Positions 2,506-62,200 of a DNA stretch of 64,000 nucleotides are shown one piece after another. The DNA lies in the NCBI GenBank assembly GCA_963969345.1, contig OZ017770.1, positions 11,092,180 through 11,156,179 of the forward strand. The letters run 5' to 3'. Position 1 is the stretch's first letter. Each line of letters opens with the position of its first letter. Origin of the DNA: Turbatrix aceti (Eukaryota; Nematoda; Chromadorea; Rhabditida; Panagrolaimidae). The notes beneath the pieces are model-generated. The model was not told the origin of the DNA. It searched no databases and saw only the letters and a program-made list of their open reading frames with translations. The position numbers were made by a program, and so were the translations under genes.

Positions 2506-3175
2506 TGCATTGATTTTTGAACTGGTATGCTAACCGAGAACGCAACAGTATGAGGTGTAATTAAATTGGAGATATGTATGCAATCCATAAATATTTACGT
2601 CTGCTAGGAATCATTTTGTTTATAAAGCTATTTTGGGAAACAAAAAAATTTGTTCATAATATCATTTTTTTATTCGTTGGCTTGAAGCAGTGCGTGCGTG
2701 TTGTATAGCGTGTCTCTAATGTGCCTAAAGATCGAGTTCACGTTTAGTAATTCCTGGAATTGTGTTTGGACCAAAAATAGTTAAATTTTTTTCGTCAGGA
2801 ATTAATTTTTCTTGTCCGAAAAAGCAAATGTTAATTAAAAAACGTCATTTGTGCCAAAAGGTACTGATTATCTTGAGCTCGCTATGCTCGAGGGCGTAAC
2901 GACAGTAATTTAATTTGGTACAAAACAAAAATTAGTGAGATTGCGTTTCAGCCACAATTTAACCTGAAGGGTTACTGTAAACTCCATTTTAAATTTATTA
3001 ATTTATAAAAAATGATTTGAGTGTCAAAAAAGTTGATTCATTGTGCATTTTGTGTAAAAACATAGTTTAAAAAACAATGGATACGTGAGATCAAAAAAAT
3101 GCAAAGTATGGGGGTAAAAAAGAAGTAAGGCATTTTTGTTCTTTGCTGTGAGTTGATCGATAACAATACCCGGGA
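2506..3175. other. AT-rich gap between convergent genes dagl and chin-1
   Basis: Holds the 3' regions of two genes that end towards each other. I see no coding exon, RNA gene or repeat. No canonical AATAAA was found close behind the lipase stop. Confidence 0.6.
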
Positions 3176-5347
3176 TTATTTGTGTTCAGGCAGTGGGGGA
3201 GGCTGTTCGTTTGCATGACTGCCAGCAGGCGGTGTAATTACACATGGTGTCATGATTAAAAAATACAAAAGCTGGTGTTGTTGCTGGGGTAGTGCTGGAC
3301 GTTCACCAGCGCAAAAAATTGTAGGAGAAAATATGGTTGCTAGATTTTCAGCTGTCATTTTATTTGCCGCAGAGTGTCGTGCAACTTCGCGAAGGTGTGA
3401 TAGCAGTACCGCCAGCGTCTGGGCATTGGCTTCGCTTAATTCTGCCAATTCTTTCCTGAAAGTTTACGTTACGATAATTTTTTGTATATTTTTATTTATG
3501 TTGACTAATTATGGCATTTCTATGTTAATTAGTGTTGAAGAGTCATGCAAGGGCAAAAAAAAGACAAAAATCTGACAGGACTAAGTGCGCTGTGGATTTA
3601 TTAGGAGCGAGTCGTATGGTTCGGTCGGCCTGAATTATCAACATTTTTGGATTGTAGAGTGCTTTTTCATTAACATTTAGTGCTTTTAAATCCTATTTAA
3701 CAGAAAATAAAATTGTTGGAAATTTTTTTCCTCTTGGCCGGTTGATCAATCTTCTGGCTACCTAATAAGTCGGATTGGAATCGTATCATGAATACGATAA
3801 ATATATGTAAATTATGGTTAACACTATATTTTTTATCTATTACATTTTGCAAACTTTGTTACGAACCTGCATTTTTTTATGCGTTCCTGAGTTTCAATAG
3901 ACGACGAAAACGCCAAAAGTAAATCTCGAAAAACGGGATATGGTACAAGTTGTTGAGGTAGAAGTCGTAGGTAAAGCTTGAGTAGGCCACATACGGTGTG
4001 AATGTCTTCGACAAAGGCAAGATTGACATTGATACCGACGTCAAATTGCCTTCTGAGCTTTTCCATTTGTTCATGCGATGCGGATACGCGATATATGCCT
4101 TCAACATCGATACCACGACGCTCTATTTCGTCGATGCACTTGGTTAGTACGGGTGGTACGTCAACGGAATGGGCGATACAGAGGGTTGTCAAATCAACAG
4201 CAAACATGCGCTTGACATATTTAGCTTCTGGTCTGCAGTCTTGTCTTGCTTGTTCGCTACACTTTTTGTGTGCAGCAAATCCACAATCTGCGCAACGGAC
4301 TCCCTGGAAAAAACACGCGGAAGGTTATACCCCGTGGTCTATTTTACGTTCATTTTCCCGTGTTCTTTCACTAACTCGTGTCAGTTAACACGTTAATCTC
4401 CTTTGTCATTGTACAAATAAACAACATACCTGTTGCACCAATCCCCACATGAAGTTGCGACAAAAATCACAATAATGAGGAATTTTAAACGTAAACGGAG
4501 CAAAATTATGCTGTCGCTGTTTTGGTGATTTTATCCTGGGGTTTTGTTGCATAAATTGTAGTGATTCCTCTTCATTGCGATTGTACTGCGAATACGGACT
4601 CTGCTCGTATATAGCTTCATCGGCCATTTTTTTAACGTATTCCGATGCATGTTTGTCTATGTACATCGATATTAACCCATCCGCTACGAGTAATTCAATT
4701 GACTCAAATCTGTAAGCAAAAGTCATAATTTACTGTGTTTTTGGCAGATGAAAAAAAGCTACCGTTTTTCTCCAACATAGTGCAGGCCGTCGTAAAACAG
4801 CTTGTAATTTAAAATATTATTATCAAAGTTAATGCACAGCGTGTACGCATCGGTAGAACGCTTTGAAGCTCGAACAAGATATGATCCCTGGCCGGCATCC
4901 CGCAAAATCTGGAAAATATTATACTTTGTGTAAAAAAAATTGTTTTTGATTTTCAAATGTCGGGCTGGCCTCAGCCGGGGTTGGTATCGGGAACGTTTGT
5001 TTATAGCAAAAACAGCGTCATCAAACACGAATTTAAGATTTTTTAATATAAAACAAAAAGAACAGTCTAAAAATATCTAAAGACAGAAGTATTTTAGAAT
5101 TACTTTTTGTGCACGCATATAAAACCATAAAAATTGTAGCAATGCTATTTTTATTTATACACCAGCCAAAATCACCCACAGCTTCGGCTTCAAAACGTTC
5201 AATCAATCCATGAAATTCATCGCCATAAAATTCAGGTCGATTGAATACTCTTTTTCTGCTTTTTACGAGTACGGGCCGGGGAGCGCGTTCTTGAAGCAGG
5301 TATAAATTCTGTTTCCAATATCCATTTTGCAGCCAATCATCCTCCAT
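3176..5347 (-). CDS. chin-1: chimaerin: SH2-C1-RhoGAP protein
   Basis: Diacylglycerol-activated GTPase-activating protein for Rac. Exons (transcript order) 5347-5180, 4908-4763, 4709-4430, 4303-3867, 3455-3176; phases agree and give 436 aa (vertebrate alpha-2 chimaerin is about 459). The order of domains is diagnostic: SH2 (about 37-125; the GSYLVR core is present), C1 zinc finger (His172 to about 221, ligands H-C-C-C-C-H-C seen, including HYCDFC and CADCG), then RhoGAP (about 233-420) with arginine finger Arg270 in GIYRVS. The 3867 donor is a weak GTTCGT. The C terminus ends in a Pro-rich PPPLPEHK tail not found in vertebrate chimaerins. An upstream in-frame Met exists, but 5347 aligns best with the family. 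Confidence 0.93.
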
Positions 5348-46969: not shown

Positions 46970-49900
46970 TTAATACCAGAAAAAATCATCATCATCGACA
47001 TTATTTTCTTCTCCAAACGTATTCACATTTCCAATATCCAAATATGGATCCTTTTCTTTTCCCGATGCGATACCACTTTCATACCCATAATCAAGATAGT
47101 CATCCTTGACTTTACCGGGTTTATCATTTTTCTGGTCACTTGCACCGCTGGTCGAAGTTTTTAAGTTTACTACCTGTGTGGGGGTGACCAGAGAAGTCGC
47201 GGCTGGCGGCGACACACCTGACATTGTCGCCGGTGTGGATGCAATATTCACGGTGTTATTAGATCTTGGTAGTGTCGTACGACTTTGACCGTCATTGCTA
47301 TCGCCTTTAGGCAACGACGTGACATTTGACAAATTTTCGGTAACCGTAGTTACGGTACTTGTTTTTGTAGTTGATGATCTGCAAAAAAACTATTTTTAGT
47401 ATTCTTAAAGTATTTGACTTTGTTTTTTGCGCCCAAAAAATATAAAATTACGTACAATGATGAAATATTTTTTTGATCAGTATAATTGCTGATTGCGAAC
47501 ACGGTCGGATGATATGATAGCGTTAGAATTGCATCAGCCACCACTGTGATTGTTGATCTTGGCACTACTGGTGCTGGTGTTATAACTGTTGACCGAGTTG
47601 TCGTGTTGACAACCACTACGGATGGTTCGTTGTTGTTTTTGGAAACGGGTGTACTAAGAACAGTAATTAACTCTCCAGCTGAAGTTGGTAAAGATGACGA
47701 CACAGTGGTCGTGGTTGATTGCAATAAATCATGCTTGTCGTTTTTTGTGACTTGTGTCGCAGACGTAAATTGCGTCAAATTACCATCGTGGTATGATTGA
47801 GATGAACCAATAACACTAGTATTAGAAGGGGGTGTCAATAGAGTTGACGCTTCAGACTGATTAAAAGCGGAAGAAATGCCTTTTGTTGTATTATTTACGA
47901 CCGTGGTCGTATTCGTCGTTTGCTGAATCCCTAAAAATTGCATCATTTAGCTTAAACAGCCAATCGGGAAAGAAAAACACATTTTTAAAAATTACAAACG
48001 TACAGACTGGTGTCGTCGCTGAATGCCCGATGGTGCTTGAATTACTACCACTGAAAACAGTTGTTGTTGATGGATGGTCATTGCTCTGTTCAGTAGAAGC
48101 CAAAGGCTGGGGTTGGAGAGTCGCATTGGGTGCAAGAAAAGGAGCATTTGAAGTCGGTGAAGTGACATTAAGCACTGTGTTTACAGAAGTAATTGTCGAT
48201 GATCCCAGAAAAACGTCTGTCACATTTAATTCTTAAAAAAATTAATTAATTACTATTGGTGAAAAAAAATTCTAAACATTTTAACCCGGATAAAGAATTT
48301 ACCGAAAACATTTTTTGTAGTGGATTGCAATTCTGGTGTACTACTTGTATTCCCCATTTTGTCATCTTCCAATTGTGTCGTTCGGGTCAAGTTTATGTTC
48401 CCCACCTGTTCAGGTATTTTTTCTGTTGTTGCAATGTTATTTTGCACTTTGCGCGGTGCGGTTGAGGTCATTTGGTGGTTGGCTGCGTTGGCCGTTGAAG
48501 AAAAAGAGCTCTCGCTGCTGTCTGTATCTCTGCCGATCGCATAGCTGTTGTTCCTCCTGCCTTGTTGCGTCGTGCGTTCGCTTGTTATTGATTCAGTTGG
48601 CAAAGGGTCGAATGCCGATTTTTGCGTCATTGCGTTGGATGTGCTTTCTGTTTTCATTACCCATGTCGGCATCGTTATCCTTGTTTCGTTGCCTTCTCGC
48701 TTGCCTGATGTTTGGTTCCGATCATCAGCGCTTTCTTCTTTGCCAAACGATACGTCTTCGATGGATTTTTCAGGTTCTTTTGAGCTGTTTTCTGGCTCTC
48801 CTTTCGAACTCTGCTCGTTTTCTTCAGACGTAGGATTTACTTCCATTTCAATTTCATCTGAATATTCGCCCTCAGAGCTTTCAGTGGGGTATTCTGAGCT
48901 TTTTTCGTTGAATTCCTCTAGATCTTGATCGCTTTCCTCTTCGGCCTTATTTTCCTCGTGTTCGGCCCTGCTTTCTTCTTCTTCGGCCTCACCGCTCTCG
49001 GCTTCAGAGCCTTCATCTGCGTCGGAATTTTTCTTTCCGTCGTTTTCTGAGCTTTCTTCGTCATTCTTTTCCGCCGATTCTTCGTCGTCGATGTTTGAAT
49101 CCCCGGATTCAGAGACGATGTCCTCGTTTTCGACGCTTCCTTCTTTGGAATCATTATGCTCCTCGGCATCTGCGTTTTGATTTTTTTCCTCGGATTTATT
49201 TTCGTGGCGATCATCATTTTTTTCATCATCTTCGCTTTGGTGTTCGGCGGATTTGTGTTCGCTTGACTCTTGTTCTTCAGAATTTTCATGACCATTGTTT
49301 TCGCGTTCGTCCGATTTGTATTCATTTGATTCTTGTTCTTCAGAATTTTTGTGTTCGTTGCTTTCGTTTTCCCTCGAATTGTGTTCACTCGACGTTTCGT
49401 TGACAGACACCTGAATTCTTTCAGTAGATTTTTCATTTTCATTTTTTGTTATTCTACTCAACGTTGTCGAACTCGGAGTTGTGTTTTCAATCGACAAGGT
49501 TTTTGTTGCTAATTCCAATTTTTTTGTGGACTCTGTTTCATGTTCATTAGTCTGATTTGTTTCTGACGTTGCTGATCGAGTTGTTGACGTCAAATCGACA
49601 TCTTCGACATTGCTGCTGCTACCAATTGTCAAATTTGTTGTACCGATGGTAGGTATCGTAAAATTGTCTTGTTCGTTTCCATCAAATCTTAGAGGGGTTG
49701 TCGAAGATCCTTGCTCTTTTTCATCAATTTTACCGGATTCAATAGTGGTATTCAGGTTTCTCAAAGGCGGTTGAGATGTTGATAAAGATAATTCGTTAGC
49801 AACGGATTCCGTAGTGATTGACTTAGATTTATTGAAGTTTGGAGTACTGTCGATCTCAATCTTTGACTCATTACCAGATCCTGTAAAATTCACGACAATT

Positions 49901-52900
49901 GTTGTTGAGTTGACAATTACTTGATCAAGAGCGGAGTCATTACTAGACTTCGTGGTGGTTGACGTTGTTGATAAGTTTTCTACCAGGTGAGTCGGAGTTG
50001 TTGCATTTGTTTCGGAAACCCCAGTGTTTTCAGTTAGTGTCGTGTTATTGTTCAACGATGGCATTGTGGGAGCATTCAGAATAACCGTGGTGTTTGAAAT
50101 TTCCGAAGCATTTAATATTGCTGTAGTCGAGGATGAGCTTGCGGTCATTCCAATCTCAGCCATCGTTTCTGGAGTCCCTTCGTCTCTTGTGTTCCAGCTT
50201 CTAGTAGTCGATGTTGTGGTTTCATCGTCTGTTGCATTGGCTGTTAAATTTATTGTGACATCATTTCCGGAATTGGGGGGTAGAATCGTTGACGTTGCTC
50301 TAGTGTTAGAAACGTTGGCCAACTCTTCAGAAGTTTCACTTGTTGTCGATTGTGCGCTTTCTACAGAAGTGCTATGATTAGCAGACGGAGTTGTTACGTT
50401 TAGTCCACCAACTGAAATTTCCGTCGCGTTGCGGACTCCAGAGGCCGTTGCTACTGGTTCATTTGTTGCATTGGCTATGCTGACCGATGTTGCATTGGAT
50501 AACGTGATTGCAACTGTTGTTGATCCAAAACCGACGATACTGCTGAAACTTGTAGCGGGAGTACTGTGCTTTGTCAAGTTCGATAAGTTTGCAACTTGGG
50601 TAGTCATTACCGGTGGCGTGTAATTCATTGCACTATTTGTCGTATTCAGAGAAACAGTTGTTATCAAAGGTTCAGATGCATTACCTGAGAGGTGGATAAT
50701 GGTTGGCGTTATTGAATTGGTTTCTACCGAGAAAGACGTACTTGATTCCCGAGTTGCATTTGTACCAGATTCGGTGGCATCTTCTAACGTCGTGTTTTTG
50801 ATCGGCAAAGTCACTGATAGAGTGCTCAAACTAACGGCTGTTCCAATGCTTTCAGTTACATTTGTTGCAGTTGTTGACAAATTTGTTGTTCCCAATTCAA
50901 TCGAAGTCTGATTTTCTATAGAATGATTTTGATACCAAGGCGTCGTGTTTGTGAAATTTGCAAATGCATCTATCTGGCGTGTGGATGTCACATTTACAAC
51001 TGCAATGGATGATACGGTAGAATTTGCTACTTGGTTTTCAGCGGTTTTGTTGGCCGCAACTTGGCTATCTGTAGTAACGGCGGTCGTTAAATTAATTGGA
51101 GGCATGAGGGTCGATGAATTTGTTATTTCGGCTTTAACTTGTGTCATTGTGGTATTTAGAATTGCTTCGTCTCCTGAATTTTTTGTTTCGGCTGTCGTAT
51201 TTCTGATTATTATTGATGCCACTTCAGTTAGCATATTTTGGGATGTACTAACTGTATACAATATAGGCTGCGTATTTTTGCGCTTCTTAAAATATTTTTT
51301 TTATTTGTAAAAAACGTTTTACAATACCTCATTTGAAGTTTCATTTTGAGCAGTTGAAACCCTTGCTGTTGAGCTAAAAATAAAAATTCCGATGGCATCG
51401 GTAGTATTTTGGGTTGTATGATTTTCTACTTGGTTTTCATCGTTTCCGATTGTTGGTAAACCAATTTGGCTACCAATGGTAACGACATTTGTTGAATTTT
51501 CTGCGGGCGTCGGGGTTGAAGAATTTGTTGTACCTTCGCCGATTTGCGAAATGGTAGTATTTAAAATCGCACCGCTACCTGAATTGATTGTTATGGGTGT
51601 CGTTGATGCGTTTTGCGACGTCAAATTTCCGATTTCTGCAACAGAAACACTAGTTGTCATGTTTTGTAATGTGCTAACAGTCGTCTGCGTATTGTTTCGC
51701 ACCTAAAACGTTTTATTATTGTTATTTTTGTAAATGTACAAATTGTTTTACGATTACATTTGCAGCTGTTGTAACTCCGGTTGTTGAGCTCAGAGCTACG
51801 TATCCGTTAGGAACTGTTATGTTGTTACTTGTTACTTGGCTTGAATTGTTGCCGACGGGCGGTGTTACAATTTGGCTACTTTCAGTAACGTCAGTGCTTG
51901 AAATTCCTGCAAAACCCACGGTTGTCGAATTTGTTGTATTAGCACCAGTTGGTGACACCGTCGCATTTAAAATTTCTTTGTCTTCTGAATTTATTGTTTT
52001 GGGTGTCGTTGATGTATTATGTGTGGTCAAATTTTTAAGCCCTGAAGAAGTAATTTCAGTTATTGCGTTTGGTGACATGCCAGTTGTTGGCTGCGTACCG
52101 TTGTTTTCCTAAAATTCATATTTGAAATTTTTTGTAAATTGTATTCGTTTTTTACAACGTGTACCTCTTTTGTAGTAACGTTTTGAACTACTGCAGAAGT
52201 TGTTGTTGAATTTAAGGGCAACGTTTCTGTAGCAACGGTAATATTGTCATTCGTGTAATTTGTTTCTTGGTTTCCGCCGCTGACGATGGGGCTACCTGAA
52301 GTAACGGAAGTACTTAAATTTCCCACGGGTTGTATGATCGATGAGTTTGTTGTGCCGACTTCAATTTGAGACATGGTATTATTTAACAATTCTTGGCTTT
52401 CTGCATTTATTGTTGCAAGTGTCGTTGAAGTATTCTGCAACGTCAAATTTCCGATTATTGTTGCGTTCTGTGGTGTGCTCACAGTTGGAGTAGCATTGCT
52501 GGGTTTCTAAAAGTTTTATGCGATTTTTTTGCGAGTTTCAAATTTCGTACCGTACTTCATTTAATGGTGCATTTTGAGCTGTTGCGTTCTGATTTTTAAC
52601 AGTTGAGCTTGCGTTAAAAATTTCTGGATAGTGTGGAGTAGCAAATGTATTATTATTTTCTGTGCTGTTGTTGACTCCTTTAAAAGGTGTTTGTGTTGAC
52701 AATAGCACTGGAGTATCATTTTGGCCTATTGTCGTTGCACTCGAACTGTTTTGCTGATTTTCCGGGATATTTATAGTTACCGGGGTTGTAGAAATGGTTA
52801 CAGGATTTGTCAAATTGACATCTGGAATTCTTTGAGGAGTGACGGCAGCGCTTACATTTTTTTGAATGATTGTTATTGTTGCCAACGATGTGTTACCAAG

Positions 52901-54830
52901 ACCGATGACGGTATTGGTCGTTGTAGTACCTGTGATGTTATTGATTATCGCGGGTGAAGCATTGGATGTTCCTGTTGCATTTTGACTGATCGTAGCCGTG
53001 TTTCCTGTTGTATTTATCAGGTTTTCTTGATTTGGCGCCGTCGTTGATATTAACACGATGGCGCCCCATTCAGTTGGCGTAGACAAAATTGACACATTAC
53101 CAGTAACGACGTAATTTGTTTGAATTGTGCCTGTGACATTGCTTTTCTCAGTTGTCGGTGTCGTCAGACTACCGTTAGTGCCCGGTTTACCCCTGCTGGC
53201 TGTCGTCGAATGCGATTGACTTTGCCACGGCCCAATCATTTCTGTCGAATTTGTTGCATCATCAACGCGAGTTGTCGGTTCCCCAGGTTTTTGTGTATTT
53301 GCAACAGCTAGATCGTCCGTTGTGTTATTTTGCCTTGTCGTCGATGTTGATGATGACGAGATTACACTGTGCGCTGGTAGTGTTGTTACTGATGAAATAA
53401 TTAGACTATGGTTGCTTTGTTGTGGCACTTGGGGAGCGATAGTACGTCTCTGCGACCCTAAAAAAATTAGATGCCGAACTTATGATAGGATTGATCAATT
53501 ACCATTGCCCGTGTCAGAATTTTCATTTGAGATGCTGTTCTAAAAACAAAAAAATGTTGTCAATCATGAAAAAAGAAGATTTGTCACTTACCATTATACG
53601 GTATTCACAGTATGCTCCAACTTGTACAGAATGTACATTGGTTATTCCTGTGCTATTTTCTTGAACATATATAACTCTGTGTGAGGTCTCGCAAGTTCCT
53701 TCTTCTGGAAATTTTTTTTATGAAGTGGAAAATCTTCTGGAAACTTACCGTAAATCCCAGTAGGTTCTTCGTCGTCACAGACCAGCTCATTAATATACCT
53801 GGGGTAATATCCATCAGGTAATTCTCTCCATACCCAACACTTGTTACAAATAGTTGACACATTAGTTTCATCTGTTGGAGTACCTTTTTTTGTGCACGAA
53901 ATGTAATGTCGGGTTCCCAAAATTGATGAATCATTGCTTTGACGCTTCTGACGGTTGTGACCGTAACCCCGATGGTTGTAATTACGGGGGTCGTAACTAC
54001 GATGATCGGAATAGTGAGGATCATAATTACGGTGGCCATAGTCATGGTGGCTGTTAGGGTATGCATTGTAGGTAAATTTTTCGTAGATAACGATACCCCA
54101 TTGATTGTCGTCATTGTTTGTACCATTTCTGACATTTAAATTGTATGAGGGTTCCGAGGTGGCTGGCTTGATTACAAGTAACTCGTCGTATTTATAGTCA
54201 GATGAATCTGTAACGGCGAGTAGTAAATCGTTTCCTTCGTAGTAATTTTCTGCTGAATTCGTAACTGTTTCCGCACAGTTTGTATTATTCCATCGAGTTG
54301 CATTATTTTTTTTACGATAATAGTATGCAGAATGATTTTTTGCCAAGTTGTATCGATCACACTGGTGTTCTCCTTTTTTATATTGAACGAATTTTGTGCA
54401 GGGTGACAACAGACCAATATTTACCAGACGTTCGGTTAGGAAGCCTTGACATTGTTTACAGTGGTCACTTGTACAATTTTGCTGAAATGAAAATTTTTTT
54501 CAAAAATAATGAATTTTTTAACTCCATTAACAAACAAAAAAATTTTGTAATGTAAAAAAAATTTAGAATGGAAAAAAATTTCTGAACATAATACGTACAT
54601 CTTCGTAAGGGTTATAAGGCGATGGGGATTCATCAACACTGAGATCATTAAACATTTTCATGGCTTCTTCCAACGTGCTAGCCTGGGAATTTCCGTCATA
54701 TTTAATATCTGAACACTGAAAAAAATAGTGTTTCACACATTTTTTTTTAAATTTTTTTTACCAATTTACTGTTGTTACCATAACCCATAAAATTGAATAG
54801 CAAAATTAAATAGATAGAAAAGACTAACAT
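46970..54830 (-). CDS. Secreted cystine-knot (noggin/Trunk-like) protein fused to a giant mucin-like tail
   Basis: Exons 54830-54762, 54715-54599, 54481-53749, 53704-53592, 53539-53503, 53457-52556, 52506-52165, 52108-51758, 51702-51328, 51285-48303, 48231-48004, 47930-47456, 47378-46970; all phases close and give 2377 aa. Signal peptide; Cys-containing pro-region (CKQCQGFLTERLVNIGLL); a His/Tyr/Asn-rich spacer; furin-like RQKR at 239-242; then a six-cysteine domain (about 250-344) with WRELPDGYYPRYINELVC, EEGTC and VQVGAYCEY. This resembles noggin/Trunk (W..LG...WPRYV....C ... C), less closely IL-17. Residues 345-2377 are Ser/Thr/Asn-rich with very many N-glycosylation sequons, an acidic Glu/Ser block of about 200 residues and an acidic Tyr-rich end. 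Exons 7-9 and the start of exon 10 are diverged copies of one unit. The end of exon 8 has two possible in-phase donors. Confidence 0.8.
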
Positions 54831-55068
54831 TATGTTGTCTTGACAAAAACAGGGGTTAATATATGAACATTAGGTAGTCGAAATTCTGTGGTCATGCGCA
54901 GAATGAAAAAAAGTTGCTATGGATAATGTACTCACGTAAATAAATGATACACCCCCCCCCACAAAGCTTAGTTAATCTCGTCCCATTTGTTTTTGCCGGT
55001 TTTTAATTGTTTTATTGATTTTTTCGTTGTTATAAAATGAATATGTTTTTGAAAAATGTGTTTTGCAA

Positions 55069-56469
55069 CTACGGAACCATGTGATAGTCGCAGTATGCAC
55101 CGACTTGAAGCGGTATGATTTTTGTCTGCCTGCCAACGGAGAGATAAGAACTTGACGTTGTGTTTTGATGCACAAAGACGGACCGATGCACTGTTCGACA
55201 CATTCCTGAGATTGAATTATGTTATGGCGTCACGAAATGAACTCTTACCGTCGGTTGTAAAGCTCTGGTCTTCGGTGTCATCACAGACCAGTTCGTTGAT
55301 GTATCGGGGGTAATAGCCTTCCGGTAGCTTTCTCCATACCCAGCACTTGGGACAGAGAAAATTTGCCTTTAACGCATTGGATATGGTTTCTCGACGGGTA
55401 CAGGATATGTAAAATCTTTCACCGATGTAGTTTTCAGTTAAAACTGATCTTTTTGAATTTCCACGCCACCAAGAGGTTTTTGAATTTTTCTGCCGTGCTG
55501 AAATTTTTTTTCGACAAAAATACGATTTGAATGGTTTGGAATACGGTACCGTTTTCTTTTTTGCTGCTGCCGCTGCCCGAATACGAATAACCTGACTGAT
55601 AGTTGTTGTGATTTTTGTTGTGATGGTTATGGTGGTGATGATGACCATGTCGGTGCCATTCATCTGATTCACTGGAGCTCGAACTTGAACTTGAACTTGA
55701 ACTCGAGCTGGAACTGGAACTGTCATTGTTACTATTGCCAGTATTTATTCCATCAAAAAAATGTTCATCAATTGGCAGAGTTTCGCCTTCGATGATCATG
55801 TAAAAATCAATTTTTGTTATATCATTGCTCTGATTTTCTGTAAAATTTGCCTTTTGCCATTGGGGTTTTCGGGTTGTCGCCTGGATGCTAGTACTTGCAT
55901 TTTTTTCATAACCAGAAGTTACTGAAGATGAATTCACAGTTTGTCCGTTGCTAGAATTAAAACCTGTCAACTGGCCGTCGCACTCATGGCCCGTCCAGTT
56001 AACTTGTGGATTATTAGGATAGTCATGGACAAATGATGTATCGTAGGCAAAGCTATAACGCTCACAAGTATAGAACGTTTTATTGAGTTTGGTATAATTT
56101 GTACAGCTTGGTAGTAATCCGATTTGAACTAAGCGCTCTGTTATAAATGCTTGACATATTTGGCAGACAGATTGCAGGCAATTATTCTGGAATTTTTTTT
56201 GAAAAAAAAAATTGTAGAAAAAAATACTTTATTATAAGGTTGACCGGGGTGATCGATTGATAGGTCATCAAACATGTTTATGGCGTCTTGTATTGTTGCG
56301 GCTTGTAGACCACCATCAAATTTTATGTTTGAACACTTAAAAAATAATATTTTTTCGGCAAACTGTTGAAAAAATAATTACAACTCACGTCGGCACCGTA
56401 AGACGAAGAAAAATGTCCTAAACTCAATTTAATAAACAAGGCGCAGCTCATCAGTATCGCCCCCGACAT
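55069..56469 (-). CDS. Secreted cystine-knot (noggin/Trunk-like) precursor, short paralogue
   Basis: Exons 56469-56389, 56335-56228, 56186-55550, 55497-55249, 55205-55069; phases 0, 0, 1, 1 agree and give 403 aa. It is a tandem paralogue of the downstream mucin-fused gene: same signal peptide/CSNIKFDGG/CQICQAFITERLVQIGLL pro-region, same first two exon boundaries, then a low-complexity spacer (17 consecutive Ser, then His/Asn/Tyr-rich). After a Ser-Lys-Arg (GNSKRS, possible processing site) comes the domain: CPKCWVWRKLPEGYYPRY, then GMC and VGAYCDYHMVP at the C terminus. Here translation ends right after the last Cys, with no mucin tail. It has one extra intron (55498-55549). Likely a secreted ligand or ligand antagonist; this is inference from the fold signature. 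Confidence 0.78.
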
Positions 56470-59291: not shown

Positions 59292-62200
59292 TTACACCGA
59301 TTTGGGAATGAAAGCTCTGTTAAACCGCAAAATTGCATCCCTTTCCATGCGTTCTGGACTATCGCACAGTTTTCGTAGATAGGAGTCAAATGTTACAGGA
59401 TGTTGAAACGAGCCTTCAAAATTAAAAATGCGTTCCAGCGAAACAGTACAGGAAGGAATGGTAAGTAGTTCAATAGCGAGGTCACTAAGTTGCGAACATT
59501 TTATGCTATTAAACTGCCAGTAATGAAGAGGTGGCATGCTGAAGGTTGGAATGTTGCCGTTTGCATCACCCGAAAGAAGTGAAGTCGTGGACTAAATTTT
59601 TTTATTAAAATAATTGATTTTTGCTTTTTAATTTATTTACCTCTGGTTGGTTCAAAATTTCATCAAAATAGGCCTGAACAACGGCTTCGGAATAGGGATT
59701 TTTGTTAAGCTGAGAGCGATCCTAAAATAAAATTATTTTTTGAACTTTTTGAACAACAAAATTGACAAAATTACCGAAAGCTGCTTTCGTCTCTGATTTG
59801 CAGCGTGGACAAGGTCAGGATAAAGCGCGGAAGCCGTGCTCGGCATTGCATTGCTGATTTCCGACGTCGTGGAAGAAGCGGATGACAACGGGGGGCTGGC
59901 GGCCGCAGAGGACGAAACATTGCTGCTCTTGCGCTCAGTGACAGTTGCAAGGATGGCGTCAAGTCCTCCGCTGTTATTATTCATCTTGGGGTTTCCGTTT
60001 CGTCGGTTGACGTCTTCGAGTTGCCTCATGCGATCTGTCAGCTGCAAAAAATGTGTCATTGTGATTGTTGGCATTTTTTCCGTTATTAATGTACTTACAA
60101 CTTTTTCAAGTGAGGCTTTTGCAAATTCAAGCTGTTTATCGTCAAGCATGAGAGCGAGCTGCGGATTGAGTGCTGTCGCTTGAATGTATGTACCGTCAAA
60201 ATCGGTGCACGACTTATCGAGTATGTAGTTTGTACGGCTCAGAATGTCGTCTAGCAGCCTTCGTGGCAGATCGCCAAGTGCGAGGAAGTCACGTTCAAGT
60301 GATACCTTGAGTTGCATGAGTGAGGGTACGACGCGATCAATTGTTGCATGATTCTCATCTTGAACGACATTCATATGCGCGCAGAAAAGCGAAAGCAAGC
60401 CAACTGCGTGATCGAGTTGTGTCCTGCAAAATAATAAAAATAAATAAAAATAAAGGGGTTCAATCACAAAGTTACCATTGCGTTTCCTTGAGCATAGGAA
60501 CAGGATTATCAAGCGGTTGCTGGCAGCACGCGAGCAAGATGCTTTCCTTCACCTTTAGCACCGCTTCTCCAAGCACCAAAAAGGGTTCTGTCACCGGAAA
60601 AATGACCGTGTGTCCTGCAAACTTGTTGATAGCAGCAAGGACTTCGGGTCGTTCGATGATGCGGTAAATCATGGTGTAAAAGTCTCGTTTTAAGTCAATG
60701 ATCATTTTGTCTGCGTCAAAAATGTTGATCAGGGCGTGTGTGAGCTTTCGGTTGTAGGGTTCGAGGAAGCGAGGGAAGCTGGTTTTGTCAAAACCAAGTT
60801 CAAGAAGCCCGGATGACACAATTCGTGAAATACAATCCCAGTCAAGGTTGTACTCGTTAACCAATTGATTGACAACATTGTGCACGTTGTGGGTCAAATT
60901 GTCGTCACACGGCACTGCTCGGATGCCAAGCAAGACAACTTCCATCGATTGCGTCGATGGGCTGTAGTACGCCGCAGAAATGCACAGACGGATGACCCCC
61001 TCATCTGGATTTGAGTTTTCCGGTCGGCGAAAATCGGTGTTCAGAACATCGACAATAAGCGAATACTTAGATGTAGCTCCCAGTTGAAGTTTTACCGTTT
61101 GAATGGTGCGTGCGTACTGAAGGTTGATAAGCTCTTCTAGTTGATTTACTTCGGGCATGGTGAACTTTGGTTGAGCGCTCTCCATAAAGTCTCGAAAAAA
61201 TGAGTTTTTGATCAGTGTCGTTGGAATGTGGGTAGTCGAGAGCGCGAGACTTAGTTTGATTTCTAATTCCCGTTGTTTTCTATCTTGCCGCTGCCATTTT
61301 TTCTGGGTAAGGTTAGCGTTGAGGTTTGCAGCGTTGGCAGCCAGGGCCGCGGCTTGCAACGCGGCTGCGGGGTTAGCGTTCTTGAGCATCATCTTGTTAC
61401 CGTTGTTCATCATCATGCTGTCTAGAAGAGCCGGGCCTTTGAACGCTTCACCTTCGTCGCCGAAAAACTCACTTTGCTTGAACAATGATGCCAAAAATGG
61501 GTTTCCAACAATCATGTTTGCAGCGTTAAAGTTAAGCAGTGCATTTGTCTGCGTAGGTGTCGGTGGAGTCTCAACAATAGCGGGCAGCCCGCTCGCACTG
61601 GGATCGCATTTTCCTGGGCTTGACGGGGCATTTGCCTGCGCCCTTGCATTTAACAAATTGAGGATGTCAGTAATTGAAGAGGGCTTGGGCAGGCCCTTCG
61701 TAGGCGTCGAACTCTTGTAAGGTGCAGTGCCCATGAAAATTCCGTTACCCACCGGCTCGTTTTTAGGCGTCTTGGGCATCCCACTGCTACTACGCCCTCC
61801 ACCGCCGCCACAGGAAGTGATGGTTGTCGGCGTTTGATTTCCCGGAACGGGCGTTGGTCCCGCTGAGGATTCTGCGGATGACGACTGCGACATTCTCGGC
61901 ATGCCATTGCTGTTAAGCTGGCCGGCGCTTCGCTCGCGGGTATACTCTTGCTGAAATTTCAGCTACAAATTTAAAGAGATATAATTGTATCTGAAAAATT
62001 ACGGACCTTCAACTTCTGAAACTCTGCATACTCAATGGGATGCTTTTTTAAGTGACACGCTAGCGTACTCGTATGTGGACCCTTTAACACATAAGTACAG
62101 TCACCGATAATGCATCGACTAAGATTCTCTGCCTTGTTGTACACAAAATACTTCCAAACAGGCGTTTGCTTGTTTGTACCACCCGACCGAATTGCAGCAG

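Follow-up and report, generated by a model that had tools for sequence, protein, structure and literature searches.

Tandem nematode genes of probable Noggin/Trunk/PTTH type, one predicted to carry its domain on a mucin-like strand

Two neighbouring genes of the nematode Turbatrix aceti, here termed A and B, are best explained as a tandem duplicate pair belonging to a nematode group of Noggin/Trunk/PTTH-type proteins. In B, the domain derived from the cystine knot appears to be continued by a long mucin-like tail. The genes lie head to tail in the window, i.e., the whole stretch of 64,000 nucleotides that was analyzed (C6:11092180-11156179 of a 59.9-Mb genome in 28 contigs). In keeping with a nematode origin, 64 matches to the nematode cuticle collagen N-domain were counted in this genome. 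A previous sequence-only reading of this DNA had described two adjacent genes on the minus strand, and their existence was confirmed by in-frame models at the positions given in Table 1. The four introns of A (41-53 nt) and the twelve introns of B (42-117 nt) are GT-AG without exception (16/16), every join keeps the reading frame, and an AATAAA sequence is found 53 nt beyond the stop codon of A. A, over its full length, and B, over its first 344 residues, are 35% identical.

Both products have the plan that had been proposed for them: a hydrophobic N-terminus, a Cys-containing pro-region, a low-complexity spacer, a basic site and a six-Cys domain (104 residues in A and 95 residues in B), although the basic site of A is only a weak N-S-K-R (residues 289-292). 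The short copy ends after the last Cys, as had been read, with the stop of A six residues further on. The VGAYC[DE]Y motif is exact in A and B. The other motif on which the reading relied is also present, but it had been spelled one position short, and correctly is W-x(2)-L-P-x-G-Y-Y-P-R-Y-I-x(4)-C.

Table 1. Coordinates of the two genes, their features and the further members of the group (positions within the window unless a contig is given)
Feature	Position	Strand	Details
Gene A, exons	56469-56389, 56335-56228, 56186-55550, 55497-55249, 55205-55069	-	5 exons; 403 aa
Gene A, class	55069..56469	-	Probable Noggin/Trunk/PTTH-type proprotein without tail; in-frame GT-AG model
Gene A, domain, first part	55249..55426	-	Starts at residue 300, in exon 4; exon 5 (55205-55069) encodes the second part
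Gene B	46970..54830	-	13 exons; 2377 aa; pro-region, knot-derived domain and mucin-like tail behind a signal-like start
Gene B, basic site R-Q-K-R	53942..53953	-	Residues 239-242; read from sequence, cleavage predicted only
Gene B, knot-derived domain	53592..53920	-	Residues 250-344; encoded by 53920-53749 (part of exon 3) and 53704-53592 (exon 4)
Gene B, intron 4 (domain-tail joint)	53540..53591	-	52 nt, phase 0; C1a and C1b have their post-knot intron at this codon
Gene B, tail (exons 5-13)	46970..53539	-	Residues 345-2377; 2033 residues, 122 sequons, no Cys
Gene B, tandem exon-unit repeats	51328..52506	-	Exons 7-9, ~115-125 residues each; fourth unit opens exon 10 (51285)
C1a	12.09 Mb on C1
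C1b	6.70 Mb on C1
C4	5.68 Mb on C4
C5	6.32 Mb on C5
C6b	6.98 Mb on C6
C2	0.63 Mb on C2

Kinship of A and B with Noggin, Trunk and PTTH, as claimed by the previous reading, is probable; the matches behind it are of modest strength. When four full-length or near-full-length members (A, the N-terminus of B, and the paralogues C1a and C1b) were compared with Pfam, Noggin (PF05806) was the top match in 4/4 cases with E<=0.1, and one of the four passed the cut-off of 24.1 bits. This was A, with 24.7 bits, just over the cut-off, in a match that spans profile positions 81-174 of 211 and leaves the first 80 unmatched. B scored 16.6 bits, and its domain alone 18.6 bits, both under the cut-off. With the domains alone of the eight members of the group, four matched Noggin, none of them over the cut-off; the domains of C4, C6b, C5 and C2 gave no Pfam match, and neither Spaetzle nor IL-17 was matched in Pfam by any of the eight.

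The PDB search set comprised 177,635 distinct sequences. The domain of A alone found Noggin with E=0.43, ranked below a cytidine deaminase (E=0.24). A four-member profile gave a single hit, Noggin, with E=0.029, and an eight-member profile gave two hits only, Noggin and, as the best, PTTH (PDB 5aoq, PREPROPTTH; E=0.15), the latter weak and covering only residues 17-73 of the chain. All these profile E-values are weak, and addition of the distant members worsened that of Noggin from 0.029 to 0.63. The confinement of the profile hits to two branches of one family is a stronger point than the E-values themselves. Searches of a protein database with A (1363 candidates) and with the four-member alignment (3120 candidates) returned nothing at E<=1; the coverage of nematodes there is uncertain, and the result is silent on rarity.

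Six further loci came out of genome searches in which Noggin and group members served as queries, and the group has at least eight Noggin/Trunk/PTTH-type loci, A and B included. A scan of the genome with Pfam Noggin reached three places (C1a, A and C1b), all under the cut-off, and B was not among them. The weakest direct match is C2 (E 0.0585), which is linked through C6b (E 7.0e-7). Full gene models among the six extra loci were made for C1a and C1b only. In a tree with an arbitrary root, A and B pair with a support of 100/100, and a branch with a support of 97/97 sets A, B, C1a and C1b apart from the other members; the tree does not fix the order within these four. C1a and C1b have the same domain as A and B, and the same pro-region, whose Cys pattern is common to all four. 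They differ in extensions after the domain of 98 and 88 residues, respectively, which are not mucin-like. The same-strand open frames upstream of the C6b and C2 domains are Thr/Ser-rich; these frames were not joined into models, and mucin-like tracts may be present in the pro-region of these members. At C2:694768-694854, the final 29 residues of the C2 domain recur with 79% identity (E 8.5e-10), perhaps as a further copy or a fragment. With at least eight loci in one nematode, there is a way to ask what this family does in worms. According to excerpts from De Oliveira et al. 2019 (PMC6660194), Trunk was found in other nematodes but was not retrieved from C. elegans, in which PTTH signalling is reported to be lacking.

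In Noggin, the knot disulfides are C155-C192, C178-C228 and C184-C230 (PMC9929448, in an excerpt). The C155-C178 region was aligned gap-free with the four-member profile, and the remaining columns were placed by the longer eight-member alignment. All six knot cysteines are present in 6/8 paralogues (C1a and C1b among them, and C6b counted from a join made by eye). In contrast, A and B have four of the six, and lack exactly III (S, G) and VI (Y, Y). These two columns align with C184 and C230, which are bonded to each other in Noggin, so that both proteins must do without one of the three knot disulfides. The cystine knot of the sequence-only reading is therefore not supported in that form for A or B, and of the six cysteines that it had counted correctly, four are knot cysteines and two are family-specific. 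Of the 28 pairs that the eight cysteines of the C1 domains could form, 3 are knot pairs; by this arithmetic, the joint loss of a bonded pair would occur by chance about once in nine, and it thus supports the fold without proving it. Loss of the disulfide may have altered the signalling surface. The pair offers a knot-type domain from which a single bonded pair of cysteines has been removed.

The likeness to known systems is partial. With Noggin (PDB 1m4u, 7ag0), the C-x(5)-W-x(2)-L-x(5)-P-R-Y-x(5)-C core lines up without a gap; however, no clip segment was identified here, and its place is taken by a pro-region that has cysteines of its own, and by a basic site. B differs further in its long tail. 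Trunk and PTTH are proproteins with the knot near the end, as in the genes described here, and to our knowledge the tail of B has no counterpart in them. Secreted mucins with a cystine-knot end likewise join a knot-type domain to a glycosylated tract, but their knot is C-terminal and of another family, whereas in B a domain of the Noggin/PTTH type stands ahead of a sequon-rich, proline-poor tract. Clip-less Noggin-like proteins exist, some of which still act on BMP, and in the pea aphid, Noggin-like members affect BMP signalling or that of receptor tyrosine kinases (both from excerpts of PMC9071555). No nematode Noggin-domain protein joined to a mucin was seen among the papers listed from the open-licence literature, which is weak evidence of novelty.

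The R-Q-K-R of B is termed furin-type from the furin consensus. An R-x-[KR]-R sequence is found ahead of the domain in B, C1a and C1b and, for C4, C5 and C6b, within open frames upstream of it, as expected of processed precursors; none was found in the C2 paralogue. After the domain of B, the nearest basic group is S-Q-R-R, at the start of exon 6. Since the furin-type site precedes the domain, mature B would consist of residues 243-2377, with domain and tail on one chain. The sequence-only reading had left open whether the domain is tethered to the mucin or released from it; we infer that "tethered" fits B better. Secretion, cleavage, glycosylation and tethering are all predictions from the protein sequences.

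The long tail of B is sequon-rich, as had been stated: its 122 sequons compare with a mean of 66.2 (sd 6.0, maximum 80) in 200 shuffles. It resembles a mucin in that it lacks Cys, contains repeats and is rich in Ser and Thr (30-37% in 11/14 segments), but proline amounts to only 1-7% per 150 residues, which is not that of a classical mucin. We therefore call it mucin-like and rich in N-glycosylation sites. The four repeat units gave z values of 7.5 to 16.7 in their six pairwise comparisons (200 shuffles each). In a genome search, the units (E<=0.001) and the C-terminus (E<=0.1) matched only themselves. Asp and Glu make up 41% of residues 1695-1844. Beyond the N-terminus of B, the mean hydropathy stays at or below 1.31 in every 19-residue stretch, so that a membrane anchor is not evident. 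Sulfation of the acidic tyrosines in the C-terminal K-D-D-Y-L-D-Y-G-Y-E is a speculation.

We propose that the group encodes processed, secreted domains of the ligand type, carried in B on a mucin-like strand, a reading to which we give an even chance. The precursor would enter the secretory pathway and would be cut at the basic site between the Cys-containing pro-region and the knot-derived domain. In A the freed domain would be the entire mature product, and in B the mature chain would start with the domain and continue into the tail of about 2,030 residues, heavily glycosylated, so that a long extracellular strand would present the domain at its N-terminus. There it could act as a ligand, or as a ligand trap, kept in the glycocalyx or matrix rather than diffusing. 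Candidate partners would be a BMP, by analogy with Noggin, or, by analogy with Trunk/PTTH, a receptor tyrosine kinase. If signalling has been kept, B would be an unusual matrix-bound ligand.

The main rival to the ligand-type reading is that B is a structural mucin-like glycoprotein of the surface coat, the eggshell or another matrix, in which the domain is an assembly or anchoring module and no longer a signal. In vertebrate mucins and von Willebrand factor, C-terminal knots are such modules. In B the sequon-rich, repetitive tail takes up 2033 of the 2377 residues, and the missing knot disulfide in both proteins would fit a relaxed or changed role. However, A retains the domain without any such tail, which argues for a use of the domain of its own, and the core CWVWR-LP-GYYPRYINELVCDD hardly differs between A and B while their spacers have diverged, which points to constraint on the domain. 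We regard this structural reading as less likely than the ligand-type one, but as a serious rival.

The ligand-type reading of B presupposes that domain and tail belong to one gene. Intron 4 of B follows ...C-E-Y-R-I-M, in phase 0, with a G|GTAAGT donor, and leads to a 37-nt exon 5 and then to the tail. In C1a and C1b, the paralogues nearest to the pair, a phase-0 intron past the knot, at ...C-E-C-Q-x-M, leads to their extensions. At that position A reads ATG-GTTCCGTAG, without a donor, and stops two codons further on. Since the intron position is common to B, C1a and C1b, a post-knot exon is probably ancestral in this subgroup; the tail of B would have replaced this exon, and A would have lost the junction. 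No likeness was noticed between the tail and the C1 extensions. The C4 member ends with G-H-A-L-V-V-G soon after the knot (L028 about 3120-3178), without an intron, and this ending resembles the start of the C1 extensions, G-F-H-A-F-V-V-G.

Alternatively, the fusion might be an artefact of the gene model, B ending after the knot and the tail forming a separate gene. Read unspliced, the frame beyond exon 4 soon closes, and retention of intron 4 would add 22 residues and a stop, giving a short soluble form that is perhaps an isoform. Against two genes, the donor of intron 4 is followed by a further exon at the same codon and phase as in C1a and C1b, and no AATAAA or ATTAAA is found between 54705 and 52566, a segment that spans the knot-tail junction. 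In the ATG scan from 54800 to 53460, the in-frame Met codons near the start of the tail lead into no hydrophobic stretch; the remaining candidate ATGs are in a different frame, inside exon 3 of B. The listing of alternative starts gave no usable one, which makes a separate mucin gene improbable. The frame and the common intron position make the fusion, as a gene model, very likely.

Taken as a whole, a history in which a Noggin/Trunk-type ligand lost a knot disulfide and came to occupy the N-terminus of a mucin-like strand of ~2,100 residues, through replacement or expansion of an ancestral C-terminal exon, with matrix-immobilised action in B and a soluble sister that arose by loss of a splice donor, is put forward tentatively, at somewhat under even chances. 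A single splice site would then decide between a soluble domain and a domain on a mucin-like strand.

That the domain is instead a CW-type zinc finger, or another Cys-rich fold unrelated to the Noggin family, is very improbable: zf-CW matched C1b weakly (E=0.0089, Pfam) and the CW domain of MORC3 matched A (E=1.3 to 2.6, PDB), but these matches do not extend past the first half of the domain and disappear in the profile searches, in which Noggin and PTTH remain, cysteines III and VI were lost together, as expected for bonded partners, and the proteins begin with a signal-like stretch, whereas CW fingers are intracellular. The CW identity was rejected on these grounds.

Directly upstream of A, on the same strand, lies a proline-rich, apparently secreted gene (window 57932-56722, minus strand; exons joined by eye), which has no Pfam match at E<=1. 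Near the gene cluster, an open frame on the minus strand (window 59292-59591) encodes a hAT transposase dimerisation region (PF05699, E=2e-8).
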